Assembly: GCF_011516645.4 (NCBI RefSeq)
Contig: NZ_CP088285.1
Coordinates: forward strand, 1,240,001 to 1,304,000
Direction: 5' to 3'
DNA from: Bradyrhizobium septentrionale
GTDB taxonomy: Bacteria > Pseudomonadota > Alphaproteobacteria > Rhizobiales > Xanthobacteraceae
DNA: 64,000 nt
Position 1 is the stretch's first letter. The number at the start of each line of letters is the position of its first letter. A program made the position numbers and the translations under genes. Below, one piece after another: positions 16,358-39,528 of the stretch. The notes beneath the pieces are model-generated. The model was given only the letters and a program-made list of their open reading frames with translations. It searched no databases and had not been told where the DNA came from.

Positions 16358-16662
16358 GGTGGCTACCCTTCTTATGAATTCAGATCGCGGGCGAAACAGA
16401 TAGTGGGCTGAGAACGGCAAAAGCTGCAAGGTGTTCAAGGTTCATGCGATCAGCACAATTGGCCTATGCTTAAGACGAAACCCTCGCATTGGCGGCAAAA
16501 ACACACACCTGCCTGAGCAGGCGTCGCACTTCATGGATGCTCGCGTCTTCCAATTCTAGGTAGCCCTGATGCGGGACTGACCGTTGATGCGATCGAAAGA
16601 AACGCGAATTGCCCGCTTCGCTTAATCTGCCGGTCCCAGCTACTACGCCGGCTCCGCCCTCG

Positions 16663-18039: not shown

Positions 18040-18208
18040 GGCGTGTTCGACTGGTCTGTCCTCAACTGATTGATCTACAATCTAGTCTCGCAACGCTTCG
18101 ACTCAACTGACCATCGTAGTTACTCCACGCTACCCATTTATTGCCGGTCCGCCTTCTGACCTGAATGTTATTGTTCTCGTTGGAAGATGGACTGCCTGGG
18201 AGCAATCG

Positions 18209-21339: not shown

Positions 21340-22818
21340 ATGACGAGCTTTAATCGGGCGTTTGGCGGACCAGCGACCATGTTCAGCAATGTCTTCCGGC
21401 AGTCGTGGCTAGCCTTGATCTATCGCTGCTCGGGCGCCGTCGTCTCCCTTCTCTTCGGCGTATGTTTTGCGCGGATGATGAACATAGAGGAATACGGGGC
21501 GCTCATGTCGCTGATGACGTTCGCGGTCGTCGCCTCCACGGTCGGCCTCGTCGGTCAGCAATTTCGCGTGCTGCGGGAAATACCAAGCATCGCCGCCCGG
21601 AAAAATTACCTAGAGATCGGCTCGATCGTCGCACAGCGGCTTCGTGTGGCATGTTTTGGCAGCGTTGCTGTGATCGTGATCTCGCTCCTGCTGTTCGTCG
21701 TAGCTCGCGGCCGCGACGGAATATTCGGAAGCTGGCAGTATTCCACAAGCTTGCTTCTGATATTGCCGTTGGCCTTGATCGAAATGCAGAGCTCGCTGGG
21801 GCGCGCGCTTGGCTCCGTCAACCTCGCGCTCGTGTCCAAGGATGTGTTGTGGCGACTTCTCATCATATTGTTTGGCGGCATTCTCTTCACGACATATGGC
21901 CATCCAGTGCCGGCGGAAGACGTTCTGGCGATTGCGACCGGAATTCTGGTCGTGCTGATCGCCGCTCAGAACGTTTACCTACGACATCTCGCGGAGGGTT
22001 ATAAGGTATTCACCATGGCGGTGAGGCGATCGAATAATCGGATTGCCGACGTTTTTTTCACTTCGGGACCGTTCTGGGTAACCAGCATCGCCAGTGTCAT
22101 GGGCGGCACGATCGATCTCCTCATCGTCTCGGTCATGGTCGGCCCGGAAGCCGGTGGATACTACTACGCTGCCAGCCGGATCGCGCTCCTTCTTGATTTC
22201 TTCCTGGCGACCTTCTGCATTCCCGCAGCGCCTCTCATCGCACGCCTGTTCGATGAGAACCGTCATGCGGAAATCACGCGCGTCACGTCGGGAGCGTCAT
22301 TGGCTGCGTTTGTCGCGGTCTTCGGCTGCGTTGTGGCTTTGGCACTGGCTGGGGACCTCGCGCTGATGGCGTTCGGAGGGGCTTTCAGCCGCGCCCACAG
22401 CATCCTGATGGTTCTGTCGATCGGCCTGCTGGTGTCGACATACTTCGGGATCGGCCCAATCGCACTGAATATGACCGGACACCAGCGAGCCGCGATGCAC
22501 ATCGTGGTGATCACTTGGGCGGTCGGGATCCTGGCCATGATCGGCGCGACCTGGGCCTTCGGGACTTTAGGTGCGGCGGTTGCTGGGGCCTGCGCGGGTG
22601 TCGCAACCAGGGTGTGGACAGCGGCCTACATGTATGCGGCGGAAGGCATCGATATCACGGCCACGACGACGCTCCGCGCGTTAGTAAGGCGCACAACGCA
22701 GAGAGACATATCCGAACCGCGCACGGAGGCGATGCGGCCAGAAGCCGGCGGCACCATTCTCGACCTGCAGCCAAGCTTGCGGCAGCCGGGACACAACGTA
22801 CATGAATCGGGGAGATAG
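21340..22818 (+). CDS. Wzx-type polysaccharide flippase
   Basis: A 492-residue membrane protein with about 12-14 hydrophobic segments, from AGAVVSLLFGVCFARMMN-like helix 1 to the C-terminal AVGILAMIGATWAFGTLGAA. The early FARMMNIEEYGALMSLMTF resembles the FxRxLGxxxYGxxxL pattern of Wzx/MATE-like exporters of the polysaccharide synthesis family. It would flip lipid-linked repeat units across the inner membrane. The start at 21340 lacks a strong ribosome site; an ATG at 21379 (MFSNVFRQSW) is an alternative. It is closely followed (4 bases) by the FkbM gene. Confidence 0.85.
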   Translation: MTSFNRAFGGPATMFSNVFRQSWLALIYRCSGAVVSLLFGVCFARMMNIEEYGALMSLMTFAVVASTVGLVGQQFRVLREIPSIAARKNYLEIGSIVAQRLRVACFGSVAVIVISLLLFVVARGRDGIFGSWQYSTSLLLILPLALIEMQSSLGRALGSVNLALVSKDVLWRLLIILFGGILFTTYGHPVPAEDVLAIATGILVVLIAAQNVYLRHLAEGYKVFTMAVRRSNNRIADVFFTSGPFWVTSIASVMGGTIDLLIVSVMVGPEAGGYYYAASRIALLLDFFLATFCIPAAPLIARLFDENRHAEITRVTSGASLAAFVAVFGCVVALALAGDLALMAFGGAFSRAHSILMVLSIGLLVSTYFGIGPIALNMTGHQRAAMHIVVITWAVGILAMIGATWAFGTLGAAVAGACAGVATRVWTAAYMYAAEGIDITATTTLRALVRRTTQRDISEPRTEAMRPEAGGTILDLQPSLRQPGHNVHESGR

Positions 22819-22822
22819 TTGA

Positions 22823-23830
22823 ATGCGTTCGCTGGCATACGAGGACGCGACTGCTGCAATCGGATTTTCGCGCGGGAGACGGTATTTGATGGATGGGGGT
22901 ACTTTCGATTACGAGGTGTCAGGAAGCCGGCTTTCGATGGGGCTGGTGAGGCTTCTGCACACTATTGTCTCGCGGAGTACCGGGCGTGGTATGGGACTCG
23001 CCATGCGGGCGGTCCGGCCGCTCCTGCATTCCCAACTGTCTTGCGTCCATTTCGCGGACGGCAGCCGTTTGTACTTTAAGCTGGACGACATCTACTGGAA
23101 TGCGTTCTTCATCGGTCACCCAGGAATGACCTACGAGGCGGACATAGGGAAGCTTCTGCTGCGGATGAAGGATATCGACTATACGTTCTTCGATTGCGGC
23201 GCCAACATCGGATACTGGTCCGTTCTTGTCACGTCGGAAATGCTGGGTCACAAGCGCGCGATTGCTGTTGAGGCCTCGCGGACGACGCTCGCGATTCTCG
23301 AGCAGAACCGTGACGCCAACGATCAGCGCTTCGAGATCTGCCGCAAGGCATTGTTCGAATACGACGGACACAGCCTGTTCTTCTCCGACGACGGCCCTCA
23401 TTCGGCCCGACACATCGTGACGTCGCAGAGCAGCCGCCCGTCACAGGCCGAGCCCGTCATGTCGATAACGCTCGATGCGCTGGCAAGGCAACAGCAACTG
23501 ACCGACAGCGATCGGCTCGTCGTCAAGCTCGACGTCGAGGGCGCAGAGATTTCGGCTCTAAAGGGCGCTCAGCAGGTCCTGAAGCGCGACACGCTGATCA
23601 TTTACGAAGACCATGGCGATGATCGGACCCACACGACCACGAGGCATGTGCTCGACGTGCTCGGATTTCCAGTCTTTTTTCTCGCTGCGGACGGGGCAGT
23701 TACGAAGGTCGATGACCCCGTTGCAATGGATCGGCTGAAACCGAACCCCAAAATCGGCTACAATTTCGTGACCTGCCCGCCCGGATCCGGCTTCCATCGT
23801 TGGATAGCAGGAATTGCCGACCGCGCATGA
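22823..23830 (+). CDS. FkbM-family SAM-dependent methyltransferase
   Basis: A 335-residue enzyme. The SAM-binding Rossmann core starts with YTFFDCGANIGYWSVL (about residues 116-131), followed by AIAVEASRTTLAIL and the FkbM signature LVVKLDVEGAEISALKGAQ. FkbM enzymes O-methylate sugars or polyketides; at this locus methylation of a sugar in the EPS repeat unit is likely. The gene follows the flippase with only a 4-base gap, so the two are co-transcribed. A hydrophobic or helical N-terminal extension of about 100 residues precedes the core and is not assigned. Confidence 0.85.
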   Translation: MRSLAYEDATAAIGFSRGRRYLMDGGTFDYEVSGSRLSMGLVRLLHTIVSRSTGRGMGLAMRAVRPLLHSQLSCVHFADGSRLYFKLDDIYWNAFFIGHPGMTYEADIGKLLLRMKDIDYTFFDCGANIGYWSVLVTSEMLGHKRAIAVEASRTTLAILEQNRDANDQRFEICRKALFEYDGHSLFFSDDGPHSARHIVTSQSSRPSQAEPVMSITLDALARQQQLTDSDRLVVKLDVEGAEISALKGAQQVLKRDTLIIYEDHGDDRTHTTTRHVLDVLGFPVFFLAADGAVTKVDDPVAMDRLKPNPKIGYNFVTCPPGSGFHRWIAGIADRA

Positions 23831-25313: not shown

Positions 25314-26534
25314 ATGAAAGTACTGCTCGCCAACAAGTTTCTGTTCAACAACGGTGGCGCGGAGGCCGTGTTGCTTCAGGAAAGAGCGTTTCTGATGAGC
25401 AGCGGAGCCGACGTCATCGACTTCGCCATGCGGCACGACCGAAACATCGAGTCACCCTACGCAGCACATTTCGTGTCTCTCCAGGAATACCGGAGCGGCG
25501 GCTATCTCGCCAAGGTAAAGAGCGCACTCTCCTTGATTCACTCGCGTGAGGCCGTCAGCAAACTCGCCTCCTTGATCGAGGCGACGCGGCCGGACTTGAT
25601 GCATTGCCACAACATCTATCATCAGCTGACCCCGTCGATTGTCGGCGTCGCCAAGTCGCGCGGGATTCCGGTTGTACTGACGCTGCACGATTCGAAGCCG
25701 GTGTGTCCGGTGCATACACGCATGCGAGAGGACCGATTGTGTTCGTCGTGTCTCGCAGGAGATTTCCATCACGTGCTGACGCACCGCTGTGCTGACGGAT
25801 CGATCGCACAAAGCGCAACGCTTTACATGGAAGCGGTCATTCAGCGCTGGTTCGGCAACTACGAGAAGGTGGACCGCTTCCTCGCACCGAGCCAGTTCAT
25901 GCGGGAGTCGGTGTTGCCTCGGTTCGCCGCGGACCGGGTGCAGCTGCTCTACAACGGCGTCGATGTCACCAGCATTTCGGCGAGCGATCGGGACAAGGGA
26001 TACGTGCTCTATTGCGGTCGGCTCGCGCCGGGAAAGGGTGCAGAGACACTGCTGCGCGCCCATGAAGCAGCGAACTGCCGGTGGCCTCTCGTCATCGCAG
26101 GCTCGGGCCCGCTGGCGGATGACCTGAAGTCGCGATTTACCCGGAATGTGCGCTTTGCGGGCCAGCTGTCCGGGGAGACATTGAAGGCGACGATCGCCGA
26201 AGCTTCGGTGGTGGTTGTCCCTTCGGAGTGGTGCGAGAACTGCCCGATGTCGGTGCTGGAAGCGATGGCCTATGGCAAGGCGGTCATAGCGACCCGCATC
26301 GGTGGCATTCCGGAGCTCGTCGACGATCGCGTGACGGGGCTTTTGTTTGAGCCCGGCAATGCGGACGAGCTGCGAAACCATGTCGATTGCCTTATGAGCG
26401 ACGCCGCGCGCCGTGCGCGCATGGGGGCTGCAGGAAGGGCCCGCGTCGAAACGGAGTTCTCTCTCGAGAAGCATAACGCCGATCTGATGGCCGTCTATCG
26501 ATCACTGGTGAGCGAGCGGCATGCATCGCAGTGA
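25314..26534 (+). CDS. GT4-family glycosyltransferase
   Basis: A 406-residue cytosolic GT-B fold retaining transferase that would add a sugar to the lipid-linked repeat unit. Visible features are the N-terminal FNNGGAEAVLLQERAFL acceptor loop, DLMHCHNIYHQL, the linker LYNGVD, the C-terminal donor domain VLYCGRLAPGKGAETLLRAH and the EX7E-type motif in SEWCENCPMSVLEAMAYGKA. A cysteine cluster (PVCPVHTRMREDRLCSSCLA) in the N-domain is typical of a subset of these enzymes. First gene of a tight plus-strand operon with the radical SAM and second GT4 genes (9 and 19 base gaps). Confidence 0.9.
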   Translation: MKVLLANKFLFNNGGAEAVLLQERAFLMSSGADVIDFAMRHDRNIESPYAAHFVSLQEYRSGGYLAKVKSALSLIHSREAVSKLASLIEATRPDLMHCHNIYHQLTPSIVGVAKSRGIPVVLTLHDSKPVCPVHTRMREDRLCSSCLAGDFHHVLTHRCADGSIAQSATLYMEAVIQRWFGNYEKVDRFLAPSQFMRESVLPRFAADRVQLLYNGVDVTSISASDRDKGYVLYCGRLAPGKGAETLLRAHEAANCRWPLVIAGSGPLADDLKSRFTRNVRFAGQLSGETLKATIAEASVVVVPSEWCENCPMSVLEAMAYGKAVIATRIGGIPELVDDRVTGLLFEPGNADELRNHVDCLMSDAARRARMGAAGRARVETEFSLEKHNADLMAVYRSLVSERHASQ

Positions 26535-26543
26535 GGATTGCAA

Positions 26544-27677
26544 ATGGATCTCACCGTAATCTCCACGTTTCGGTGCAACTCGAGATGCCAGATGTGTTAC
26601 ATCTGGAAGAATCCGACCGATCCAAAGGAAGAGGTCACGCTCGAGACGCTCGCGAAACTTCCGACGGGGTTCGATAATCTCAATATCTCCGGCGGCGAGC
26701 CGACTCTGCGGAAGGATCTTGCCGAGATGGTGGACCTGCTCCACCCTAAGGCCCGGATCATAGAGATCAGCTCGAACGGACTGCATCCCGAGCGTCTCCT
26801 GCCCATCATTAAGAAGCACCCGAAGATCAAGGTTCGTTTCAGCCTTGAGGGTGACGCGGTTACCAGCGACTCCATACGCGGCGAAAAGGACGGCTATGCC
26901 ACGAAGGTAGCCGGGCTTCGCATGCTGCAGGAGGCGGGCGGGCAAGACCTGGGATTCGCCCTCGTCATCCAGGACGAGAATGTGGCCCAGCTGGTGCGAA
27001 CCTATGAACTGGCGCGTTCAATGGGGTTCGAGCTTGCAACCTCGACGCTGCACAACGCGTGGCAATTCTACAAGAACGACAACTATTTCTACGAGCGCGT
27101 CGCGGTGGCCCGGCAGGTGGAAGGGCTTATCACTGCGATGCTCAAGAGCAACAAGCCGAAGAACTGGTTTCGCGCCTATCTGAATTTGGGCTTGATTGAA
27201 AAGATCCTCGGCCACCCGCGGTTGATACGCTGCAGCGCGGGGACGGATTTCGCATTCATCGATCCCTGGTCCGATGTGTGGGCCTGCAATGTGCGATCGG
27301 ACTTGCCGCTGGGCAACCTGGCGCGGCAGTCCTGGAGTGAGATCATCGCAAGTGACACGGCCCGGAACTCGGTCGCCAAGGTTCACGCTTGCCAACAAAA
27401 CTGCTGGATGGTGACGACCGCGCGCACGGCAATGCGCTCAACGCTGGTTCCGCAGGCACCGAAGATGGGGCCGCTGCTCTGGGTGCTGAAGAACAAGCTG
27501 AAGGCCGAGCTCGGCCGGCCGATCTGTTTCGATCAGTACATTGATTATTCCAACGTCGCCCCTACTCCGCGCGTCGAGCGAACGTCATTCCTCAACGAAA
27601 AGCAAAAGGCACGACTGGTGCGCGGGAGAGAGACGGTCGACGCGCGATATCCGCTCAAGGACTTTATGAATAATTAA
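26544..27677 (+). CDS. Radical SAM protein inside the EPS glycosyltransferase operon
   Basis: A 377-residue enzyme whose N-terminus carries the [4Fe-4S] cluster motif CNSRCQMC (CxxxCxxC) at about residues 11-18, followed by the SAM-binding NISGGEPTLRKD and the TIM-barrel strands (ISSNGLHPE, KVRFSLEGD). The C-terminal part has further cysteines (RCSAGTDFAFIDPWSDVWAC, then HACQQNCW), as in SPASM-like auxiliary cluster regions, so a second cluster is possible. The ATG at 26544 follows AGGATTG, 9 bases after the first GT4 stop. Gene linkage implies modification of a glycan intermediate or of an exported peptide; the reaction is unknown. Confidence 0.85.
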   Translation: MDLTVISTFRCNSRCQMCYIWKNPTDPKEEVTLETLAKLPTGFDNLNISGGEPTLRKDLAEMVDLLHPKARIIEISSNGLHPERLLPIIKKHPKIKVRFSLEGDAVTSDSIRGEKDGYATKVAGLRMLQEAGGQDLGFALVIQDENVAQLVRTYELARSMGFELATSTLHNAWQFYKNDNYFYERVAVARQVEGLITAMLKSNKPKNWFRAYLNLGLIEKILGHPRLIRCSAGTDFAFIDPWSDVWACNVRSDLPLGNLARQSWSEIIASDTARNSVAKVHACQQNCWMVTTARTAMRSTLVPQAPKMGPLLWVLKNKLKAELGRPICFDQYIDYSNVAPTPRVERTSFLNEKQKARLVRGRETVDARYPLKDFMNN

Positions 27678-27696: not shown

Positions 27697-28878
27697 GTGA
27701 GTGCAGATCATCTGGCACTGCGGGTGATCATGCTTGGCTTGCGTGGATTTCCCAACGTGCAGGGAGGAGTGGAAGTTCACGCAGAGCATTTGTGTCCCCA
27801 TCTCAAGGAGCTGGGATGTGATGTCGAGGTGATCGTCCGCTCCTCGTATATGCCGCCTGACCGCGGTGACGAGTGGCAGGGCGTACGCTACCAGCGGGTA
27901 TGGTGCCCGAAAACCTCGGGTCTTGAGACAATCGTCCATTCGTTTCTCGGAGTGCTTGTCGCCGCATGGCAGCGGCCGGACGTTTTGCACATCCAGGCTA
28001 TCGGACCGGCCTTGATGGCGCCACTGGCGCGGTTGCTGGGACTGCATGTTGTCGTGACGCACCACGGACCGGATTACGAACGGGAGAAGTGGGGCCGATT
28101 GGCCAGAATGGCCCTGCGCGCCGGCGAGGCCTGGGGGATGCGATTTTCCGACGGCCGCATCGTGATCTCCCAGACCATCCGGAAGCTGGTGCGGGAAAAG
28201 TACGGCCTGAATTCGGACCTTATTCCAAACGGCGTCACCTTGCCTGACGTGCCGACGAGCACTTCGGCGCTGGAGAAACTTGGGCTCACGCCGGGACGAT
28301 ATGTGTTGATGGTGGGCCGGCTGGTGCCGGAGAAACGGCACCCGGACCTGATTCAGGCCTTTGCCGATGCCAGGCTCGCCGGATGGAAGCTCGTGTTCGT
28401 CGGGACTTCCGACCATCCAGACGCCTATACCGAATTGCTTGCGGCGCGCGCTGGGGCAACCGCCGGGGTGATCATGGCGGGCTTCCAGTGCGGCCTCACA
28501 CTGCGAGAGTTATACGCGCACGCTGGCATTTTCGTTTTGCCATCCTCGCACGAAGGCTTGCCGATCGCGCTGCTGGAAGCTCTGAGCTTCGGCTTGCCCG
28601 TGGTGGCCAGTGACATTCCTGCTCACCTGGAGATCGGATTGAATGACGCGCACTATTTCCATGTGGGAGATGTATCAGCGCTCGCGGATCGTCTGGCATC
28701 GTTTGCACACAGTCCGTGGCCGTTGGAGCTCCGCGAGAAGACGCGCAGCTGGTTGGCCCAACGGGAAGACTGGCGCTCTATCGCCGAGCGAACCCTCGGA
28801 TGCTATCGCAAAGCAATCGAGCCTCGTCGAGGCGGTCCTCATGTGCGGCCTCGGACGGTGCCGCCCAGCGCCGCCTAG
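27697..28878 (+). CDS. GT4-family glycosyltransferase
   Basis: A 393-residue GT-B transferase. The N-domain shows GLRGFPNVQGGVEVHAEHL, VLHIQAIGPALMAPLARLLG and VVTHHGPDYEREKWG, which resembles rhamnosyl- or galactosyl-type transferases with the GxPxxxGGxE pattern. The donor domain has VLMVGRLVPEKRHPDLI and the EX7E motif in SSHEGLPIALLEALSFGLPV. The GTG at 27697 is chosen because of the strong TAGGAGGG site upstream. It follows the radical SAM gene by 19 bases. The predicted role is addition of one sugar to the EPS repeat unit; donor and acceptor are unknown. Confidence 0.9.
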   Translation: MSADHLALRVIMLGLRGFPNVQGGVEVHAEHLCPHLKELGCDVEVIVRSSYMPPDRGDEWQGVRYQRVWCPKTSGLETIVHSFLGVLVAAWQRPDVLHIQAIGPALMAPLARLLGLHVVVTHHGPDYEREKWGRLARMALRAGEAWGMRFSDGRIVISQTIRKLVREKYGLNSDLIPNGVTLPDVPTSTSALEKLGLTPGRYVLMVGRLVPEKRHPDLIQAFADARLAGWKLVFVGTSDHPDAYTELLAARAGATAGVIMAGFQCGLTLRELYAHAGIFVLPSSHEGLPIALLEALSFGLPVVASDIPAHLEIGLNDAHYFHVGDVSALADRLASFAHSPWPLELREKTRSWLAQREDWRSIAERTLGCYRKAIEPRRGGPHVRPRTVPPSAA

Positions 28879-28971: not shown

Positions 28972-30291
28972 ATGAGCGCACTCCTGCTATATTTCCTCAT
29001 CTATACGTTCTTCCGATCGATCTCTAACGGCGTCGATCGTTTGTCCGGGACGAGCTTTTCCATGATCCTGTCGATCACCGTCCTCGGGATCGGTGCTGTG
29101 GCGATCTGGCAAATGCGGGACGTCAGGATACACAGACGAATTTTCACACTGCTGATCTGCTTGTCCATCTTTATTGCCGCTTGCGGACTGTCATTTATCG
29201 TCAGCGCTGGAGCCGGCAAGATAATCGACCAATATTCCGCCTGGTACGAGATCTTCAGGTACCTGCAACTGATCATGTTCGTGGCATTGCTTTCGTCCCT
29301 CTACCGACATCCACGTTTTTGCCTCAACGTCCATCGCGTTTATATGTCGCTGCTGTTCATCATTTCCGCCGTCGGACTAGGTCAATACCTGACCGGTCAT
29401 GCAGAGCTTGTCACCCAATACGACAAGTTTAAGCGGGTGGTGGGTCTTTCTTCGCATCCAGTGCCCTACAGCCTGGAGATCGTATTGACCTTTTTCGTTT
29501 GCGAGCTGTCGCGCCGGAAATTGCGACTGCCCATTCAGCACTTTCACATTGCGGTGTACGTTCTGTTTCTTGTTGCCCTGGTCCTTTCTGCTTCAAGGAC
29601 CGGTGTCGCGCTGCTCGGGGTGACCCTCAGCGTATACTTTTTTGTCCAGCGGCCTGCCCTCCTTCCGGTGTTCGCGGCAGCATTCGCGATCCTTATATGG
29701 ATATCTCCGTTTGGAGAGTTGTTTTCGGAGCTGAACACCGTTCCGGACTACATCATGAGAGGCGAATATGCGGTGTGGGACTGGCGCACCGCGCCGACCT
29801 CTGTCCATTGGCGCATTCACCACTGGTACTATCTGTCCACACTTGGATTGGAACGAGCGTGGACCGGATATGGCCCCGGTCAAGTAGGGTTCTATAGCCC
29901 GTTTCTTCTTTTGGCGCATAGTCAGTTCGTGGAAATATTCTTCGAGTCGGGCGTGGTCGGCCTGATCACCTTTGCCGTGTTTTGGTTCAGTCTTCCGCTG
30001 GCCGCGATGTCGGACCGGCAGCGGCTCGTTTCCTCATTTGGAAAACGGTCAGCAGAAATTGGAATCCTGCACTTGTGGCTTGCGATGTTTGCCGGCGTGA
30101 CGCTGGTTGCAACGTTCGATGCGAGCTTCGACAGGGAAACGGTGGCGTTTTCGCACTTGATCGTCAGCATGTTTGTGGTGCTGGCTCAACCTGAAGCCGT
30201 CACCGAACGTGACCCAAGATCGCGCTACTCGCACATCTCGATGACTGCTGGTTCGCGGATTGAAGCATCGGCGAGCCGAGAAACTATCTGA
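28972..30291 (+). CDS. O-antigen ligase/polymerase-like membrane protein (Wzy candidate)
   Basis: A 439-residue polytopic protein with about 10-11 hydrophobic segments from residue 4 onward. It has a larger periplasmic loop around residues 255-305 (WDWRTAPTSVHWRIHHWYYL, ERAWTGYGPGQVGFYSPFLL) and then AHSQFVEIFFESGVVGL. The HSQFxEIxxExGxxGL pattern is the conserved core of Wzy_C/WaaL proteins, where the His takes part in catalysis. It would polymerise flipped repeat units in the periplasm. It is the only Wzy candidate in the locus and is probably the last gene of the GT4 operon. Confidence 0.85.
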   Translation: MSALLLYFLIYTFFRSISNGVDRLSGTSFSMILSITVLGIGAVAIWQMRDVRIHRRIFTLLICLSIFIAACGLSFIVSAGAGKIIDQYSAWYEIFRYLQLIMFVALLSSLYRHPRFCLNVHRVYMSLLFIISAVGLGQYLTGHAELVTQYDKFKRVVGLSSHPVPYSLEIVLTFFVCELSRRKLRLPIQHFHIAVYVLFLVALVLSASRTGVALLGVTLSVYFFVQRPALLPVFAAAFAILIWISPFGELFSELNTVPDYIMRGEYAVWDWRTAPTSVHWRIHHWYYLSTLGLERAWTGYGPGQVGFYSPFLLLAHSQFVEIFFESGVVGLITFAVFWFSLPLAAMSDRQRLVSSFGKRSAEIGILHLWLAMFAGVTLVATFDASFDRETVAFSHLIVSMFVVLAQPEAVTERDPRSRYSHISMTAGSRIEASASRETI

Positions 30292-30347: not shown

Positions 30348-31271
30348 ATGAAAGAGCATCTTGCCATTCCGCTCACGGCTCTCATGTTACACGGCGCCCT
30401 CGTCTCATCGGCGAGCGCCGCGACGATAGCGCCTCCATCCCAGTACGGACGATGCAGCGACAACGGCAATCTCTTGTTAGAGATCGAATCTGCATCGCAC
30501 ATGACGCAGCGGGCAATGTGTCATCAAAAACCAGTGCTGCAGGTGCAACTACGCGAGCCTCCGGCGCTCAAACCCATCTGCACGTCCTTGTCGATCGATT
30601 GTGTGGTTTCGCAAACTTCCGGATATGACAACGGAATATATCCACAAGGAGTCAGGACCTATTTCTCGTGGTATGCAGGTGGCCCCGCTGCCACCGGGAA
30701 CATTGCTTCTCCTTCCAACTTCTCTTCATTGACGGGTTGGGGACAGATATATCCGCAAGTCGGTGTTTCGAACGTTGCTGCCAGCGTCTATCTGAAGGAC
30801 TATCGCGTCTATGTGCACTTGACGAGTGGCGGTTGGCAACTTGTACAAGATCAAGCCACGAATTCCATCGGTGGCCGGCGTTACGTGGCAGACTTCTCCA
30901 ACAACTCCTCTTCGGAAATGAGTCTCGTTGTTCAGCCTGACGGAAGCGTAAGAATGGACTCGCCAGCATCCGGCTATAATAATCATTTCTGGATTGAGCC
31001 GAGAGGATCGTATGCTCCCGGAACAGTCAACGGGGTGTTCTCGCTGGCACAGCTACGCACCGATGATGCAAGTGCAAATCTGATCGCAAACTTTGGAGCT
31101 GACTGGTGGAGAGACACCTCAGCTCCGTACCTCTACCTAAATGGAGTGTTTGTAAATAATCCCGGCATCGGCATGGGCACCTGGGTCAAGTTGACGACGA
31201 CGTACCAGTACTTCTTCTTCACGACCATGACCAAATCGCAACTGCAAGCCGAGCCGCCGCCATTGAGATAG
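30348..31271 (+). CDS. Sec-exported protein with an unassigned ~200-residue domain shared with the type I cargo
   Basis: A 307-residue protein. A signal peptide covers residues 1-25 (IPLTALMLHGALVSSASA, cleavage near ASAA). A ~75-residue cysteine-containing stretch follows. Residues about 100-307 form a domain I do not recognise: YFSWYAGGP, LTGWGQIYPQ, GGWQLVQDQAT, YVADFSNNSS, SGYNNHFW, RGSYAPGTVNGVF, LIANFGADWWRD, NNPGIGMGTWVKLTTTYQYF, SQLQAEPPPLR. The same order of motifs occurs in the protein encoded at 33090-34883. Abundant Trp, Tyr, Asn and Gly suggest a beta-rich, possibly glycan-binding fold. It lies at the end of the EPS locus and would act in the periplasm or outside. Function unknown. 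Confidence 0.8.
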   Translation: MKEHLAIPLTALMLHGALVSSASAATIAPPSQYGRCSDNGNLLLEIESASHMTQRAMCHQKPVLQVQLREPPALKPICTSLSIDCVVSQTSGYDNGIYPQGVRTYFSWYAGGPAATGNIASPSNFSSLTGWGQIYPQVGVSNVAASVYLKDYRVYVHLTSGGWQLVQDQATNSIGGRRYVADFSNNSSSEMSLVVQPDGSVRMDSPASGYNNHFWIEPRGSYAPGTVNGVFSLAQLRTDDASANLIANFGADWWRDTSAPYLYLNGVFVNNPGIGMGTWVKLTTTYQYFFFTTMTKSQLQAEPPPLR

Positions 31272-31384
31272 CTGAACAGTGCTTCAGTGCTCGACAGATC
31301 CGCTCGGGCACTTGCCGCAACAGCCTCCGCGTCCAGGGCGCTCGCCAAGGATCATCGCATGCGCGGCGGCAAGATCTGAGGGGG

Positions 31385-31570
31385 TGGTTCAGGAGCGGCC
31401 ACGATGGCGATGGAAATCCAGAATATCCCGTTCAGCCCTGAGCTTGTTGACCTCACGCCTGAGCCGCGCGATTTCCTCTGCTGCTCGGGCTTCATCTGGC
31501 CGTGACCCGGCAAAGGCCTGCACAGGATCGGAGCCGAACTCCTTCACTCATTCTCGCAAAACATTCTCAT
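31385..31570 (-). pseudogene. IS3-family transposase orfA fragment
   Basis: Read on the minus strand, the segment gives a piece matching the middle of IS3-type OrfA: VKEFGSDPVQAFAGS, then after a frame slip EEIARLRREVNKLRAERDIL. The usual tryptophan before VKEFG is a TGA stop and the following KKAAA segment is lost. No OrfB or terminal repeats remain. It marks an old insertion at the right edge of the EPS locus. Confidence 0.6.
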
Positions 31571-31616
31571 GAACCTCCCAGGTCTCGGGCGGCTTGCGCC
31601 GCCGATACCCCGCGTT

Positions 31617-32354
31617 CTAGCTGGCGAGAACCATCAGTGATGCCCCGCCGAGCAAGCGCACAGACAGGTCCTCTCCGGCAACAGTCCGGACAATGCGCCG
31701 CCCGGCGTTAGCGAGGAGGGTTTTCGTGGTTCGCCATTCGGGATGGAGATGGAGGAAATCTTCAAGCCTGGTGTACTGACTGTCAATGATCTCAAAGCCG
31801 GTGTCGCGCAGTGTCGCCAGAGCTGTTGCCCGATCAAAGTAATGCAGGTGACCAACCTCCTTGCGTTTCTGAAGGGGCTGATCGCGCAGAACGCTGAGGA
31901 CATTGAGGTCGAGGGGAATATGAAACACATAGTATTTCGAACGTCCCCTGAGCTTTCGCAGAAAGCCCATATAGTCATCGATGTGCTCGAAGACATCGAT
32001 ACACAAGAGACAATCGTAGCTTTCGTTGGTTTGCAAGAAGTCACCGCAGTGGAAGCTCAGGTTGTCTCTTGCTCGCTGTTTGGCGACGCTTACGGCATAG
32101 GGAGCGATATCGTAGCCAACGGCGGTTGAGTCACGGAAGATATCCTGCTGAAGAAGGGCTGTCAGAACGCCTCCCACCCCGCAGCCTACGTCGACGATGG
32201 TCCGGCAAGTGATGTTGTTGGCGCGCACGATCTTGGCGATCTTCTCGGCCTTGCCAGCGGCATCTTCGTCATGCCAACCTGGATGGGCCTCGGCATAGCC
32301 TTTTCCAGTATAGAGATCGCTTGACATAAGCTCTGCCCCTCCGGCATTCGCCAT
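31617..32354 (-). CDS. Class I SAM-dependent methyltransferase
   Basis: A 245-residue protein with a Methyltransf_23-like core: motif I IVDVGCGVGGVLTALL, motif II VGYDIAPYAV, motif III FHCGDFLQ and YDCLLCIDVFEHIDDY. The C-terminal half includes FHIPLDLNVLSVL and HLHYFDRATALATL, frequent in methyltransferases of polysaccharide clusters. The ATG at 32354 is preceded by AGGGAGGG; an upstream ATG at 32405 is less likely. It would methylate a sugar or a surface component. It is separated from the EPS genes by the IS3 remnant and faces them. Confidence 0.85.
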   Translation of the reverse strand: MANAGGAELMSSDLYTGKGYAEAHPGWHDEDAAGKAEKIAKIVRANNITCRTIVDVGCGVGGVLTALLQQDIFRDSTAVGYDIAPYAVSVAKQRARDNLSFHCGDFLQTNESYDCLLCIDVFEHIDDYMGFLRKLRGRSKYYVFHIPLDLNVLSVLRDQPLQKRKEVGHLHYFDRATALATLRDTGFEIIDSQYTRLEDFLHLHPEWRTTKTLLANAGRRIVRTVAGEDLSVRLLGGASLMVLAS

Positions 32355-32850
32355 CGTTCCCTCCCTTGATTGAACTGCGACTTGGACGGCAGATCGATAA
32401 TCCAAAGTTTCAACCAGCTTTTGCGAGCTAAGCGGCCATCGCTAACTCTGACAGCGATCAGCGCCGCGCCCACGACCAGCGCAATTGCGCTCCATAATCG
32501 CAGTTCCGGTTCGTTCGGGAAACTAATCATTTCGAGTTAGTAGAACGCCCTAGGTAGGTAGCAAGCCTGCCCCACGAGGTCTGAAAGAGAACAACAGCCA
32601 AGGCGGCGAGCAGCCGCAACAAAATCGAGCGATCTCATGCGCGATGAAGCCGCGTTGCTTCCCTGTTTCATTTGAGCCTGAACGAAGCCCCTCGCACCAC
32701 GCGTCAAGATCGATCGACACTACGTGCGTTCGTCTCGGCTGGCGCCGTCGCTTTCGATCTCCCGCAACGCTGGTGCCGAAGCAATCCGATGAAAAAATCG
32801 AACGTGTGCCTTGAACCGATCCGATAGGGCACGTGTCGGCACCATATACG
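32355..32850. other. Gap upstream of the type I secretion locus
   Basis: About 500 bases with no credible gene. Its right end holds an inverted repeat TATAC-GCGT-GTATA at 32845-32858, directly before the leader of the cargo gene, a possible operator. Confidence 0.35.
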
Positions 32851-33089
32851 CGTGTATAAATCACATTTTGAAACTTTTTTCGCCATTTTTAATTATTAAC
32901 CCACCGGCTCAGCAGTCGGGGGGGCCAGCTACCAAAAACCCACTGCTTGAAATCTCCTCGCGGTTCGAGGCTGCAATGCTTTGAAATCTGTTCGCGACTC
33001 AGGTTGCGAGCATGCAATCTGTCGCACGTCTCTGATGTGCGGCATTGGAATTCCTCGTCCTTAAACTTGGTCTGCAATGGAGAAACACA
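32851..33089 (+). repeat. Leader element, copy A (before the type I cargo gene)
   Basis: This ~240-base stretch aligns through most of its length with the region before the ABC transporter gene (35099-35375). Shared blocks in the same order are TTTGAAACTTTTTTCGCCAT, an AT-rich TTATTAA/TGATTAA, CAGCAGTCGGGGGG, TTGAAATCTCCTCGCGGTTC with CGAGG, GTGCTTTGA/ATGCTTTGA and GCATTGGAATTCC. CCTCG-CGGTT-CGAGG (32956-32970) is a perfect small hairpin kept in both copies. A TTGAAA with an AT-rich box 17-19 bases on could be a promoter. Copy A ends at the GTG start of the cargo gene. Confidence 0.8.
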
Positions 33090-34883
33090 GTGGCGCTGAC
33101 CGATGTCATCTATCAAAATACGCCAGGCAACAGCGAAGGGTTTCCGCTTGGTGTCCCCACAAGCTATTCCTGGTACGGTGGCAGCACCGGCCATACGGGC
33201 AGCACCCCGCCCTCCAATTTCACCTCCGTCACAGGGTGGGGACAGGTCTATCCCAAATCCGGAGCGACCAACGATTCCAATCCGGCCAACGTTCAGATCG
33301 CGGACTTCCAGACGTGGGTGCATTTGAAAGGTGGCGGCTGGGTCCTCGTACAAGATCAGGCGACTGACCCCATCGCCGGAGCTCAGTTTCTCGCCGATTT
33401 TTCCGGCAACACGAACTCTGCCTGGGGCGTGACAAGGCAGGCGGACGGCAGCGCGATGGGCGCTGCGCCGCTCAATGGATACAACGACCATTTCTGGCCG
33501 GGCTCACGCGGCAGCTACACTGCCGGAACGGTCGATGGTGTCTACGTCCAAGCCAACATGAGGACCACTGATCCGAATGAGCATCTCGTTGCCGATCTGG
33601 GAGCTGATTGGTGGCTAAACCCTACGGCCCCATACGTCGACGGGTTCTCCAACAATCCCGGTGCCGGGATGAGCGATTGGGTTGAACTGACGACGAGCTA
33701 CCAGACCCTTTATTTCACCTCGATGACGTCTGCTCAGTTGCAGGCCGATCTGCCGCCTCCGCTGAGGGGCACTTCTGCCCCCACGACTCCGACGCAACCG
33801 ACCACTCCCACATCACCCACGACGCCAACCACCCCGAACGTCGCACCGTCGGTGACACAGGCCTCCGCTTCACCGGGGACCGGAACCGAGCACGTCGGTG
33901 ATGTCGTCACGTTGACGCTCACCTTCAGCGAGGCGGTGACCGTCGGGGGTGCGCCTACGCTGTCGCTCAATGATGGCGCTAAAGCCACCTATGCAGGCGG
34001 CTCCGGGACAAACACGCTCACCTTTCGGACGACCGTCGCGTCGACTGATACGAGTACGTCGGCACTCGCCATCACCGGGGTCAGCCTCGCGAACGGCGCG
34101 ACCATCAAGGATTCCGGCGGCCTCGCAGCGAACCTCGCAGGCGCGGTGAAGACGTTCTCCGGTCTCCAGATCTCGACGGCTCCGACCGCTCCAACCATGC
34201 CGACGCAGCCAACCACACCGACGACGCCGACAACCCCGTCGACTCCGACTGTGACTGCCCCGGTGCTCTCTGTCGCGGACAACTCGCTCTGGGTGGCCGG
34301 CAGAGGCGGTCAGGTCGACCTGGGGACAAAGGTGTGGACGAATGATCCCAACGATCGCGTCAGCCTGAACATCAGAGGGCTGCCGAGATACGAGACGATC
34401 ACGACCGGCGACGGCACCAGGTTCAGGGGTGACAACATCACTCTGAGCTCCGCTCAGGTCGAAAGCGGACTGACGTTGACATCGTACTACAGGGGGAACG
34501 CTCATCCCGTCGCGAATCTCACGCTGACTGCGAGTGGGACGGACCCGGTCACCGGCGCTGTGACGAAGGCGGCGTCGCAGACAATCACCGTAACGGATCC
34601 TCGGCCGTCCAGTTCGTCGCCGAGCGCGCAGAGCTTGGCAAGCCAGAGCTTCGCGCAGCTACTGGGGTCGGACACCAGCACACTGGCGTCCACCGCGCCG
34701 CAGACGACCAATTCGGCATGGCAAGACACGGCAAAAGCGTCCCACGCAAGCCAGAGCTTCGCGCTGCTGAACCAGTTCATGGCGGGTAGCTCCGGTCGGG
34801 TCGACAGCGGTCAGATCGTAGCGGCCTTGTCGAGCGGGACCGGTTGGACACAGAACTCGTTGCTGACCAAACCTCAAGGTTGA
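33090..34883 (+). CDS. Type I secretion cargo candidate: unassigned N-terminal domain, PT-rich linkers, Ig-like repeat
   Basis: A 597-residue protein with no signal peptide, from a GTG at 33090 after GGAGA. Residues about 21-226 repeat the unassigned domain of the Sec-exported protein at 30348 (SYSWYGGST, VTGWGQVYPK, GGGWVLVQDQAT, GYNDHFWPGSRGSY, LGADWWLN, NNPGAGM, LPPPLR). A Thr/Pro linker (229-250) leads to a bacterial Ig-like repeat (about 252-362: LTLTFSEAVTVGGAPTLSL). A second PT linker precedes another beta domain (391-503). The C-terminal ~95 residues are Ser/Ala/Gln rich with two ASQSFA-L-L motifs. No RTX nonapeptides are present. The downstream ABC-HlyD pair and the shared leader make it the likely cargo. 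Predicted role: surface matrix or adhesin protein. Confidence 0.82.
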   Translation: MALTDVIYQNTPGNSEGFPLGVPTSYSWYGGSTGHTGSTPPSNFTSVTGWGQVYPKSGATNDSNPANVQIADFQTWVHLKGGGWVLVQDQATDPIAGAQFLADFSGNTNSAWGVTRQADGSAMGAAPLNGYNDHFWPGSRGSYTAGTVDGVYVQANMRTTDPNEHLVADLGADWWLNPTAPYVDGFSNNPGAGMSDWVELTTSYQTLYFTSMTSAQLQADLPPPLRGTSAPTTPTQPTTPTSPTTPTTPNVAPSVTQASASPGTGTEHVGDVVTLTLTFSEAVTVGGAPTLSLNDGAKATYAGGSGTNTLTFRTTVASTDTSTSALAITGVSLANGATIKDSGGLAANLAGAVKTFSGLQISTAPTAPTMPTQPTTPTTPTTPSTPTVTAPVLSVADNSLWVAGRGGQVDLGTKVWTNDPNDRVSLNIRGLPRYETITTGDGTRFRGDNITLSSAQVESGLTLTSYYRGNAHPVANLTLTASGTDPVTGAVTKAASQTITVTDPRPSSSSPSAQSLASQSFAQLLGSDTSTLASTAPQTTNSAWQDTAKASHASQSFALLNQFMAGSSGRVDSGQIVAALSSGTGWTQNSLLTKPQG

Positions 34884-35375: not shown

Positions 35376-38114
35376 ATGGCGATCCAGAATGGAAATGCCG
35401 ATGCCGCGGATCTGGGGCTTCGCGCGCTAGCTCTGTTTCTCCGCCTCCATGGCGTGAATACTGTGCCGGACCAGCTCCGCGATCGCTGTGGAAGCGATGA
35501 GATCGGCATCCGCGCGATGCTTCGCTGCGCGCGCGAATTTGGGATCAAAGTCCGCTCGCGGACGACGGATTGGACCCGCCTTGCGAGTATCCAGCTGCCC
35601 GGAATCGCCTCACTGCGTGACGGCGGATTTCTGCTGCTGGGAAAGATCGACGACCAGGTGGCGCTCGTGCTGCACCCGACCTCGTCGCATCCAAGCCGGA
35701 TGACACGCACCGAATTCGAAGCGATCTGGGACGGCCGTCTGATCCTCGCCGGATCACACAGCCTCACACATCACGCGCTTCACACCCTTTCCGGCATCGG
35801 CGCGCAATGCGTTAGCCTGGGTGCCCGCTTGGCGCGCCGCGCCGGCGACGTCCTGACGGGCGCACGCGATACCCTGATAAAGGCCGGCGGAAGCGTATTG
35901 ATGAAGGTTCGCGACACTTTGATGCGGGGGCCTCTCGCCGCTCCTGGCGATGTCGCAGACCATCCGGCGGCGCCTGAATCCTCGGTCGATTCCAAAGATG
36001 ACGACGAATCCGGGCTCATTGCGCTGGCGATCCTGCTACGTTGCCATGGAATCGCAGCCGACCCGGGCCAAATCCGCCATCGGGTCGGCGCGGCACGCCT
36101 CGGCGTGACCGAAATCCTGCGCTGCGCCAAGGATTTCGGGCTCAAGGCAAAGGTCCAAAGGACGAGCTGGAACAGGCTTGCGATCACGCCGCTTCCGGGA
36201 ATAGCGCTGCTGCGCGACGGCAGCTTCCTGGTTCTCGGCAAGGTCGTCGACGACAAGCTCCTCGTCCAACGGCCGCTGTCTCCGCGACCCGAATCAATCA
36301 CGCAAGCCCAACTTGAGGCGATCTGGGACGGCGGCATCATCCTGATGGCCCGCCGTGCGAGCCTCACCGATCTCGCTCGACGCTTCGACATCGGCTGGTT
36401 CGTCGGCGCCATGCAGAAATATCGCCGACTGCTCAGCGAGGTGCTGGTCGCGTCGTTCTTCCTTCAGATCTTTGCCGTCGTCTCACCGCTGTTCTTCCAG
36501 GTGGTCATCGACAAGGTACTCGTGCATCGGAGCATGAGCACGCTGGACGTGCTGGTCATCGGCCTTGTCGTGCTCACCGTGTTCGAGGCTGTTCTGGAGA
36601 TTCTGCGCGTCTATCTGTTCGCGCATACGACAAACCGTATCGACGTTGAGCTCGGTGCCAGGCTGTTTCGTCACCTGATGGCGCTTCCGATCGCCTATTT
36701 CCAGGTCCGCCGCGTCGGCGATTCGGTGGCGCGCGTCCGCGAACTGGAGAATATCCGCCAGTTCCTGACCAGCTCAGCGCTCACGCTGGTGATCGATCTG
36801 GTGTTCACCGTCGTCTTCCTCGCGGTGATGTTCTATTACTCGACGACGTTGACCTGGATCGTGCTGGCGTCCTTCCCGCTCTACATCGGTATCTCCGCGG
36901 GAGCCGCGCCGCTGTTCCGCGCGCGCCTCGATGAGAAATTCAATCGCGGGTCCGAGAACCAGGCCTTCCTGGTCGAGAGCGTCACCGGTGTCGAGACGCT
37001 GAAGGCCATGGCGGTCGAACCGCAGATGCAGCGCCGCTGGGAGGAGCAGCTCGCCGGTTATGTATCCGCAAGCTTCCGCGTGCTCAGCTTGAACAATACG
37101 GCGAGCCAGGCGGTCCAGATGATCAACAAGCTGGTCGTCGCTGCGACCCTTTACTTCGGCGCCCGCTTGGTGATCGGCGGGGACCTGACCGTCGGCGAGC
37201 TCGTCGCGTTCAACATGCTGGCCGCGCGCGTCAGCACGCCGGTTCTGCGGCTCGCGCAGATCTGGCAGGATTTCCACCAGGCCCGCTTGTCGATCGATCG
37301 TCTCGGCGACATCCTCAACACCATGCCCGAGCCAAGCTTCACGCCGTCTCGGGCGGCCCTGCCCCCGATCCGCGGCCACGTCGCATTCGAGCACGCGAAT
37401 TTTCGTTACCGCATCGACGGCCCCGAAGTACTGCACAATGTGTCCTTCAGCGTCGAGCCGGGCCAGGTCATCGGCATCGTAGGCTCGTCGGGCTCGGGCA
37501 AGAGCACCATCACCAAGTTGATCCAGCGTCTTTATGTCCCTGAGAGCGGGCGCGTGCTGGTCGACGGCGTCGATCTCGCGATGGTCGATCTGAGCTGGCT
37601 ACGGCGCCAGATCGGCGTCGTGCTGCAGGAAAACGTGCTGTTCAACCGCACGATCCGCGACAACATCGCGCTGGCCGATCCAGCCATGCCGATGGAGCGC
37701 GTCATCGAGGCGGCAATGCTTGCCGGCGCGCATGATTTCATCCTGGAACTGCCGGAGGGTTACGACACCGTCGTGGGTGAGCGCGGCAGCAGCCTGTCCG
37801 GCGGGCAGCGCCAGCGTATCGCAATCGCGCGTGCACTCATCACCGATCCACGCATCCTGATCCTTGACGAGGCGACCAGCGCGCTGGATTATGAAAGCGA
37901 ACGCGCGATCCAGCAAAACATGAAGCGGATTTCCGCCGGACGGACCGTGTTCGTCATCGCTCACCGGCTATCAACCGTACGCAATGCCAACCGGATCATC
38001 ACCCTCGAGCATGGCCGCATCGTCGAGGACGGCAACCATGACGAGTTGATCCGCACCAACGGCCGTTATGCCAACCTTCACTATCTGCAGGCGGGTATCC
38101 ATGACGGCCGCTAA
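35376..38114 (+). CDS. Type I secretion ABC transporter with two tandem degenerate C39-like domains
   Basis: A 912-residue inner-membrane exporter; HlyB-type proteins are usually near 700. The extra length is a second N-terminal peptidase-like domain. Domain 1 (about 12-128) and domain 2 (about 210-330) align throughout: GLRALALFLRLHG/GLIALAILLRCHG, LRCAREFGIK/LRCAKDFGLK, LPGIASLRDGGFLLLGK/LPGIALLRDGSFLVLGK, FEAIWDGRLIL/LEAIWDGGIIL. The catalytic Cys of C39 peptidases is Leu13 in the first and Ser212 in the second, so neither should cleave. A six-helix membrane domain (about 365-640) and the ATPase follow: GSSGSGKST near 703, LSGGQRQR near 807, ILILDEATSALD near 828, IAHRLST. It overlaps the HlyD gene by 14 bases. 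Confidence 0.93.
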   Translation: MAIQNGNADAADLGLRALALFLRLHGVNTVPDQLRDRCGSDEIGIRAMLRCAREFGIKVRSRTTDWTRLASIQLPGIASLRDGGFLLLGKIDDQVALVLHPTSSHPSRMTRTEFEAIWDGRLILAGSHSLTHHALHTLSGIGAQCVSLGARLARRAGDVLTGARDTLIKAGGSVLMKVRDTLMRGPLAAPGDVADHPAAPESSVDSKDDDESGLIALAILLRCHGIAADPGQIRHRVGAARLGVTEILRCAKDFGLKAKVQRTSWNRLAITPLPGIALLRDGSFLVLGKVVDDKLLVQRPLSPRPESITQAQLEAIWDGGIILMARRASLTDLARRFDIGWFVGAMQKYRRLLSEVLVASFFLQIFAVVSPLFFQVVIDKVLVHRSMSTLDVLVIGLVVLTVFEAVLEILRVYLFAHTTNRIDVELGARLFRHLMALPIAYFQVRRVGDSVARVRELENIRQFLTSSALTLVIDLVFTVVFLAVMFYYSTTLTWIVLASFPLYIGISAGAAPLFRARLDEKFNRGSENQAFLVESVTGVETLKAMAVEPQMQRRWEEQLAGYVSASFRVLSLNNTASQAVQMINKLVVAATLYFGARLVIGGDLTVGELVAFNMLAARVSTPVLRLAQIWQDFHQARLSIDRLGDILNTMPEPSFTPSRAALPPIRGHVAFEHANFRYRIDGPEVLHNVSFSVEPGQVIGIVGSSGSGKSTITKLIQRLYVPESGRVLVDGVDLAMVDLSWLRRQIGVVLQENVLFNRTIRDNIALADPAMPMERVIEAAMLAGAHDFILELPEGYDTVVGERGSSLSGGQRQRIAIARALITDPRILILDEATSALDYESERAIQQNMKRISAGRTVFVIAHRLSTVRNANRIITLEHGRIVEDGNHDELIRTNGRYANLHYLQAGIHDGR

Positions 38115-39528
38115 CCGCAACATCGTCCCGTTTCCGCGACGCGAGATTCGCCGCCGCGAAAACGAAATCGCCTTTCTGCCGGCGGCGCTCGAGATCGCCG
38201 AATCGCCGCCGTCGCCGATCGGGCGCGCGATCGGGGCGAGCATTATCGCCGCGTTCTGCGTCGCGCTGGTGTGGGCGACGCTCGGCAACGTCGATATCGT
38301 CGCCAGCGCTTCCGGCAAGATCGTGCCGGGCGGACGCACCAAGCTGATCCAGCCCTTTGAAACCGGCGTTGTCCGCGCGATCCGCGTCCGCGACGGCGAG
38401 AGCGTCAAGGCCGGCGACGTCCTGATCGAGCTCGACCCGACAATGACGGAAGCCGACCAGGAGCGCCAGAAGAGCGATCTGCTTGCGGCCGAGCTCGATG
38501 TCGCGCGGCTGCGCGCGGCGCTGGCCGCGGATCCGCTCGCCGCCTTCCAGCCTCCGCAGAACGCAAGCGCCGCCGAGGTTGAGATGCATCGCCAGTTCCT
38601 GATCAGCCAGCGCGCCGAACAAAGTGCAAAGCTTTCCGAAATCGAGCGCCAGCAGGGTCAGAAGGAAGCGGAACGGGCGACGACATCGGCGAGCGTCGCC
38701 AAGCTGGAGGCCACGATCCCGGTGCTGAAGGAGCGCGTCGATATCCGCAAGGGTCTCGTCGAGAAGGCACTGGCATCGAAGGTCGTCTATCTCTCCGAAT
38801 ATCAGGAACTGGTCGCCATGCAACAGGACCTCATCCTGCAGCAGAGCCGGCTGCACGAAGCCGATGCGGCGATAGCGCTGTTGAAGGAGACCAAGGACAG
38901 GACCGGCGCCGAGTATCGCCGCGCGACCTATGATGCGCTTGCAAAGGCCGAGCAGAAGGCTGCGAGCGCCGCGCAGGAGGTGGTGAAGGCGGACCGGCGA
39001 ACGAAGCTCCAGCGCTTGACCGCACCCGTCGACGGCGTCGTGCAGCAACTTGCCGTTCATACGGTGGGCGGCGTGGTGACGCCGGCTCAGGCGCTGGCTG
39101 TTGTCGTCCCGAGCGAGAGCCATCTCGAGATTGAGGCCATGCTCTCCAACCGGGATATCGGCTTCGTTCATCCCGGCCAGAAGGCGGAGATCAAGGTCGA
39201 TACGTTCAACTTCACCCGCTACGGGCTGCTTCATGGCGACGTGCTCAGCGTGTCGACGGATGCCATCACCCGCGATCGGCCGCAGGGCGGCGCCAATGAC
39301 CGGACATTGGGCACAGCGCAGAGCAGCAGTGAGCCAAAAGGTCAGGAGCTGGAATATGCCGCGCGCGTTTCGCTCGACCGGACGCACATGCAAATCGAGG
39401 ACAAGCTCGTCAAGCTCGGGCCAGGCATGGCGGTGACGGTCGAAATCAAGACCGGCACGCGCAGGATCATCAGCTACTTGCTTTCACCGCTGGCGCGCTA
39501 CCGGCAGGAGTCCCTGCGCGAGCGGTAG
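38101..39528 (+). CDS. HlyD-family membrane fusion protein (type I secretion adaptor)
   Basis: A 475-residue adaptor that links the ABC transporter to an outer-membrane channel. One membrane segment lies near 44-64 (GASIIAAFCVALVWATLGNV). It is followed by the lipoyl-like half KIVPGGRTKLIQPFETGVVR, a long coiled coil (about 120-300), the second lipoyl half (LTAPVDGVVQQLAVHTVGGV) and the C-terminal beta-barrel ending RRIISYLLSPLARYRQESL, the HlyD-type terminus. The ATG at 38101 overlaps the transporter gene, so translation is coupled. No TolC-like gene lies in the window; a housekeeping TolC elsewhere would be needed. Confidence 0.93.
   Translation: MTAANRNIVPFPRREIRRRENEIAFLPAALEIAESPPSPIGRAIGASIIAAFCVALVWATLGNVDIVASASGKIVPGGRTKLIQPFETGVVRAIRVRDGESVKAGDVLIELDPTMTEADQERQKSDLLAAELDVARLRAALAADPLAAFQPPQNASAAEVEMHRQFLISQRAEQSAKLSEIERQQGQKEAERATTSASVAKLEATIPVLKERVDIRKGLVEKALASKVVYLSEYQELVAMQQDLILQQSRLHEADAAIALLKETKDRTGAEYRRATYDALAKAEQKAASAAQEVVKADRRTKLQRLTAPVDGVVQQLAVHTVGGVVTPAQALAVVVPSESHLEIEAMLSNRDIGFVHPGQKAEIKVDTFNFTRYGLLHGDVLSVSTDAITRDRPQGGANDRTLGTAQSSSEPKGQELEYAARVSLDRTHMQIEDKLVKLGPGMAVTVEIKTGTRRIISYLLSPLARYRQESLRER

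Follow-up and report, generated by a model that had tools for sequence, protein, structure and literature searches.

ExoK and ExsH of Sinorhizobium meliloti are homologous enzymes of glycoside hydrolase family 16 (GH16); ExoK is encoded in the exo cluster, carries a signal peptide and is exported via the Sec pathway. In PMC4916376, a reference title presents exoK and prsD/prsE/exsH as independent degradative pathways, with two glycanases acting on one exopolysaccharide (EPS). For Rhizobium leguminosarum, PMC2275737 describes PrsD-dependent secretion of PlyA, PlyB, RL2412 and pRL90140, which are glycosyl hydrolase and beta-helix proteins; RL2412 and pRL90140 have 76% in common over the last 150 residues and are otherwise unlike each other, pRL90140 contains a TPT repeat, and plyA adjoins prsDE. 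Moreover, RapA2 and RapD of R. leguminosarum are exported via a type I secretion system (T1SS), bind EPS or capsular polysaccharide and influence EPS processing, according to PMC9298526. In this study, two open reading frames (ORFs), A and B, were analyzed in a stretch of 64,000 nucleotides of the Bradyrhizobium septentrionale genome (contig NZ_CP088285.1, positions 1,240,001 to 1,304,000), referred to as the window, in which they adjoin an EPS locus and genes for an HlyB-HlyD-type T1SS. Each of them encodes one copy of a domain of about 222 residues, whose family is probably new and polymer-trimming or polymer-binding.

Shared Domain and Architecture of ORFs A and B

A BLASTP comparison of both proteins yielded 223 bits (E 2e-72; 114 of 227 positions identical), a likeness far above chance, covering residues 84–307 of A and 5–226 of B as counted from the GTG codon at 33090 (20–241 as counted from 33045). 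The frame of ORF B is open from TTG 33045; translation more likely starts at GTG 33090, which follows a GGAGA sequence. The motifs listed in the initial annotation were recovered in both proteins and in the order given there, with SWYxGG represented by SWYAGG in A and by SWYGGS in B.

As previously described, ORF A begins with an N-terminal hydrophobic segment with a cleavage-like A-S-A/A site after residue 24 (recognized by eye), and its C-terminal end is the end of the domain; orthologues in loci L049 and L050 share this N-terminal layout. In ORF B, the N-terminal domain is followed by two Pro/Thr linkers, an immunoglobulin (Ig)-like-looking stretch and a C-terminal tail, and the hydrophobicity scan gave no N-terminal hydrophobic segment. 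This layout likewise agrees with the earlier description. For the Ig-like repeat, no Pfam Ig match was obtained in ORF B itself; long domain copies at other loci do match Big_13/Big_6. ORF B is not an RTX (repeats-in-toxin) protein, since a single GGxGxN match, no GGxGxDxxx nonapeptide array and no PF00353 match were found. Furthermore, a third copy, of the same kind as B, is present in the window's genome (G000:C2:7574139-7574801; L006 8666-9814, at about 7.574 Mb), featuring a domain 96% identical to that of B and a shortened C-terminal module. By eye, short ORFs near this copy resemble transposase pieces.

Family Assignment, Predicted Fold and Conserved Site

The family libraries and literature searched contained no named family for the domain, in agreement with the initial annotation. 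Neither GH16 (PF00722) nor the heparin lyase I-like family PF14099 matched ORF A or B at E<=1, and hhalign comparison of a profile of 244 domains with 22 heads of each type gave probabilities of 0.1% for GH16 and 0.2% for PF14099, compared with 85% for lyase versus GH16 as positive control. The PL7 alginate lyase model PF08787 matched neither ORF A or B nor 20 further members at E<=1, and a cadherin-like match to ORF B was absent among Pfam models. In the members tested, the domain matched no Pfam family, and the best 120 of 406 homologues carried Pfam labels only where fused to other modules. Such fusions involve CBM4_9, CBM60, malectin and legume-lectin-like modules.

The AlphaFold2 model of copy A (predicted local distance difference test 92.6, predicted template modelling score 0.90) is all-beta. 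In the numbering of the copy-A domain, W80, G93, G167, D169 and W171 are invariant over the 244 domains, and Q84, W25, W48, R136, H130, W132, D99, F100, N188, Y52 and N128 are nearly so; a copy in L054, outside this set, has Glu at 169. In ORF A numbering, the conserved residues include W131, Y135, Q167, D182, F183, N211, H213, W215, R219, D252 and W254. W48/Y52, N128/H130/W132 and G167/D169/W171 lie at alternate positions on the predicted strands 44–54, 127–134 and 162–171, and the conserved residues therefore probably share one face of a sheet, as read from predicted strands rather than from coordinates. The arrangement of N-x-H, Arg and Tyr is presumably reminiscent of jelly-roll lyases, which serves as a lead and not as a test.

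Neither the two window copies nor the third copy have lost any of the tabulated residues. H130 is missing in 19 of 291 aligned rows, some proteins being counted twice and 11 of the 19 rows originating from fetched loci. W48 is also missing in 13 of these 19 rows as compared with five of the 272 others, and D99 and F100 are both missing in 10 of the 19 as compared with two and none of the 272, respectively. The domain tree assigns the rows lacking H130 to only two independent losses. Ten N-terminally exported copies lack H130, W48, D99 and F100, and each time an intact copy is encoded in the same locus. These site-decayed copies, e.g., L037 3742-4674 and L042 3341-4300, have kept the other tabulated core residues and look like pseudoenzymes beside intact copies.

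Distribution and Linkage to EPS Loci

Homologues numbered 110 with ORF A as query and 406 with the broader profile; among the best 120 of the latter, at least 11 were named cyanobacterial and one originated from a Firmicutes metagenome-assembled genome (MAG). The domain was detected in 18 of 195 genomes of the genus, two of 297 of the order, one of 289 of the class and two of 299 of the phylum, the window's genome being included each time. Genome G023, containing fragments only, was left out of all counts over 17 genomes. By eye, several of 19 inspected homologues have signal- or lipoprotein-like N-termini. A cyanobacterial branch (P0237-P0323) comprises proteins of about 260 residues, several with N-termini of this kind, and one such copy (L163 8001-8645) is located on a Nostoc plasmid classified as conjugative. 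Copies were also encountered on two viral contigs (L088 4797-5678, L089 1-897), with an endolysin gene lying about 4 kb away from one of them.

EPS genes were scored by tblastn (E<=1e-10), the references being EPS proteins encoded in the window and in L042; self-matches are therefore built in for L042 and, in the set from named genomes, for L081. Genes for Wza, ExoY-type, Wzz, Wzx or Wzy proteins were considered core genes. Within the genus, 20 domain loci were fetched from 16 genomes; all 20 contained EPS genes and 16 of them a core gene, the other four showing only glycosyltransferase or radical SAM matches. Among twenty evenly spaced 20-kb control regions from two of the 16 genomes, EPS genes were found in one and core genes in none. 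The association with EPS loci suggested by the initial annotation is thus supported within the genus. Named genomes contributed 27 loci (Bradyrhizobium, Rhodopseudomonas, Tardiphaga, Methylobacterium and one Hyphomicrobiales MAG), of which 26 contained EPS genes and 22 a core gene; the linkage extends to Rhodopseudomonas, Tardiphaga and Methylobacterium. Because the two sets have organisms in common and include many orthologous loci, these counts do not represent independent events.

Type I Secretion Cassette with Exchangeable Heads

ORF B shows the pattern of a type I substrate, namely no N-terminal signal, a conserved C-terminal module and adjacent HlyB-HlyD genes. Of the 17 genomes, comprising the window's own and the 16 mentioned above, 16 encode an HlyB-family transporter no more than 18 kb away from a domain gene; in the remaining one, G156, the only HlyB of the family is on another contig. 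The kind with two C39-like domains directly adjoins the type I-type copy in G000, G010, G037, G012, G139 and G149, and a shorter kind, 69–72% identical, is found 5–18 kb away in the other genomes and at a second G012 locus.

With window positions 34260-34880 as probe, the C-terminal module was detected in 57 of the 195 genomes analyzed for the genus. In the window's genome, it was confined to ORF B and the third copy of the domain (E<=0.001); tblastn matches on plasmids were confined to two records of Bradyrhizobium barranii. From 20 of these 57 genomes, 20 cassettes were fetched among the 30 best matches, domain proteins being passed over. In all of them, the module protein was encoded directly upstream of HlyB (79–91% identical) and HlyD. 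Purpose-built models classified the heads as PF14099-type lyase (13), an unnamed head termed FN (4), beta-helix (2) and GH16 (1), the FN and beta-helix models having been seeded partly from the same cassette proteins; Pfam searches of ten heads gave five lyases, one GH16, two beta-helices and two without match. A core EPS-type gene was located near 10 of the 20 cassettes, and at least G111 encodes both the domain and an other-head cassette. The unnamed domain thus occupies a position that is otherwise taken by carbohydrate-active domains.

The FN head comprises about 300 residues, begins with MSFNLSS (L136 9654-11861, L138 9605-11899, L139 8591-10753, L140 9424-11631) and had no Pfam match at E<=0.001 in L136 and L138; it may constitute another carbohydrate-active family without a name.

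Recurrent Pairing of Two Predicted Export Forms

Export forms were told apart by hydrophobicity alone. The N-terminally exported form was found in all 17 genomes, and 16 of them combine one or more copies bearing an N-terminal hydrophobic segment with one or more long, C-terminally extended copies lacking it. The two predicted export forms noted initially for the window are thus a recurrent feature, and the loci display the ExoK/ExsH-type pattern of a Sec-type and a T1SS-type homologue within EPS loci, as far as the routes can be predicted from the sequences. The long copy is missing on the G156 stretch seen. In G144, the N-terminally exported copy comprises 259 residues as compared with about 310 in orthologues. 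In the domain tree, a quick reconstruction with long-branch warnings, N-terminally exported forms fall into several clades (that of ORF A, a 'PSPCL'-tailed one and one in L048), as do long forms; because both forms are split in this way, the pairing seems to have more than one origin. A third form of about 340–380 residues (L040 14310-15341, L042 5551-6579, L054 7401-8549) has no N-terminal hydrophobic segment; instead, its C-terminal part contains a hydrophobic helix, after which basic residues occur.

Proposed Function and Alternative Explanations

Since ExoK/ExsH and the PrsDE substrates, as exported glycanases trimming the EPS of their producer, are the closest working models, ORFs A and B are read as a pair of EPS-processing proteins that share a new domain and most likely act as depolymerases; we give this interpretation about an even chance of being right. 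The domain would represent the working head, i.e., a lyase- or hydrolase-like depolymerase for the polysaccharide of its own locus. ORF A would exit via Sec and encounter the polymer either within the periplasm or on the surface of the cell, and ORF B would exit through the adjacent HlyB-HlyD by means of its C-terminal module and meet the polymer outside. Jointly, the two may set EPS chain length or release, similar to ExoK and PrsDE-exported ExsH for succinoglycan. A more specific proposal, put forward tentatively, is a widespread new carbohydrate-active enzyme family with its own fold variant and site that cuts the producer's EPS, uses two or three export routes and has decayed partners that bind; its putative active site would consist of W48, Y52, D99, N128, H130 and R136 around a D169/W171 core. 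In this view, the fusions to unrelated binding modules together with the cyanobacterial and viral-contig relatives would make such a depolymerase family, absent from the libraries searched, a widespread one. Novelty would concern the protein family and not the kind of system, because ExoK and ExsH already cleave one EPS. Given this pair in S. meliloti, the 'undescribed system' suggested by the initial annotation was an overstatement.

The main rival is passive binding or a matrix role, as favored initially. A function as EPS lectins or matrix proteins, with A holding or guiding the polymer at the cell and B cross-linking the released matrix, as is thought for RapA2/RapD (PMC9298526), is conceivable, if doubtful. 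The all-beta model, the conserved aromatics W25, W48, W80, W132 and W171, which suit sugar stacking, the several copies per locus, of which site-decayed ones are still kept, the form ending in a hydrophobic helix and the RapA2/RapD precedent all fit a lectin, whereas conserved His, Arg, Asp, Asn and Gln beside the aromatics do not, and the four kinds of binding module fused to relatives would be redundant for it. Because the cassette slot otherwise carries lyase, GH16 and beta-helix heads, an enzyme is favored and a lectin remains a candidate.

Several observations weigh against the linkage to EPS loci. No EPS gene was matched at the above tblastn threshold in the two viral loci, none is annotated around the Nostoc plasmid copy, and EPS and transporter genes are absent beside the third copy in the fetched locus L006. 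Such homologues off EPS loci, the sparse spread within the genus (18/195) and the fusions to malectin and to CBM60, annotated as xylan-binding, would suit enzymes or lectins directed at foreign polymers (those of plant cell walls, of other bacteria or of the host surface) whose genes merely travel in a variable EPS locus. We consider this unlikely, given that the Bradyrhizobium, Rhodopseudomonas, Tardiphaga and Methylobacterium copies sit among EPS genes, where the two export forms are repeatedly paired. A periplasmic or surface accessory of Wzy-dependent assembly, e.g., a polymerization or export factor that later became T1SS cargo, could explain why ORF A starts 56 bp after wzy and why the N-terminally exported form occurs in all 17 genomes, but it leaves both the T1SS copy in a lyase/GH16 slot and the binding-module fusions unexplained and is therefore regarded as very improbable.

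The family, which comprises at least 406 proteins in total, is linked in Bradyrhizobium both to EPS loci and to the type I cassette whose head is exchanged between lyase, GH16, beta-helix and this domain. If the EPS-processing pair indeed cuts, it would define a new depolymerase family with specificity possibly set by the neighboring wzy locus, of use in EPS engineering, in recognizing the rhizobial EPS that undergo trimming and as an anti-biofilm tool; if it only binds, these polymers would have gained a new family of lectins. Either way, two genes make EPS processing in Bradyrhizobium testable.

Gene Content of the Window

The features of the locus are compiled in Table 1; the Wzy, glycosyltransferase, two-C39 HlyB and HlyD neighbors are all confirmed. 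In neither of the tandem C39-like domains of the window HlyB does a Cys occupy what we take to be the place of the peptidase nucleophile. The full-length alignment of this protein to orthologues of 882–925 residues suggests that the C39 duplication has been kept in them. In L051, a related EPS locus, a short HlyB of 728 residues (14929-17115), whose match begins at residue 211 of the window HlyB, is accompanied by an HlyD-like protein of 666 residues with an N-terminal C39-like stretch (17170-19170), as if the second C39-like domain had shifted from the ABC protein to the adaptor.

Table 1. Features of the EPS and type I secretion locus (window positions).
Feature	Position	Strand	Evidence
Wza-like polysaccharide export protein, edge of EPS locus	16663..18039	-	PF02563 Poly_export, E 6e-17
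Undecaprenyl-phosphate sugar transferase, ExoY/WbaP type	18209..19687	+	PF02397 Bac_transf, E 6.8e-69
Wzz-like chain-length determinant	19811..20977	+	PF02706 Wzz, E 4e-08
Wzx-like flippase	21340..22818	+	PF01943 Polysacc_synt, E 8.9e-09
FkbM-type methyltransferase	22823..23830	+	PF05050, E 1.2e-13
Glycosyltransferase	25314..26534	+	PF00534, E 5.2e-33
Radical SAM protein	26538..27677	+	PF04055, E 2e-14
Glycosyltransferase	27697..28878	+	PF00534, E 1.3e-27
Wzy-like polymerase/ligase	28972..30291	+	PF04932 Wzy_C, E 1.4e-12
ORF A, 307 residues, N-terminally exported copy of the unnamed domain	30348..31271	+	BLASTP; orthologues
Signal-peptide-like segment, ORF A residues 1-24	30348..30419	+	By eye (MKEHLAIPLTALMLHGALVSSASA/A) and hydrophobicity
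Unnamed domain, copy A, ORF A residues 84-307	30597..31268	+	BLASTP, conservation, AlphaFold2
SAM-dependent methyltransferase between ORFs A and B	31617..32405	-	PF13489, E 2.4e-14; kept in L049, L050
ORF B, 597 residues from GTG 33090, type I-type copy	33090..34883	+	
Unnamed domain, copy B, tabulated conserved residues intact	33102..33767	+	BLASTP, conservation table
ORF B Pro/Thr linkers, Ig-like-looking stretch and conserved C-terminal module	33768..34880	+	Common to lyase/GH16/beta-helix proteins
HlyB-type T1SS permease/ATPase, two C39-like domains	35376..38114	+	TIGR01846, 1085.2 bits (cut-off 725.55); PF03412, two stretches
HlyD-type T1SS adaptor	38068..39528	+	TIGR01843, 390.6 bits (cut-off 208.65)
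Coiled-coil-like ORF, 913 residues, adjoins T1SS genes	39642-42383	-	Relatives in L044, L045, L050, L053, L133

Comparison with Known Systems

The pair resembles ExoK and ExsH in that two exported proteins would serve one EPS; ExoK and ExsH are GH16 enzymes, whereas the domain of ORFs A and B has no GH16 similarity. RL2412 and pRL90140 bear RTX motifs according to PMC2275737, an array of which ORF B is devoid. RapA2 and RapD are composed of cadherin-like, Ca2+-binding Ra/CHDL domains, in contrast to the window domain, which matches no Pfam family. At the profile level, the lyase and GH16 heads of the Bradyrhizobium and Mesorhizobium T1SS cargos are likewise unrelated to this domain. Nevertheless, these PF14099, GH16 and beta-helix cargos feature the C-terminal module of ORF B and also carry their heads at the N-terminus, and those of Bradyrhizobium moreover share its HlyB-HlyD cassette.

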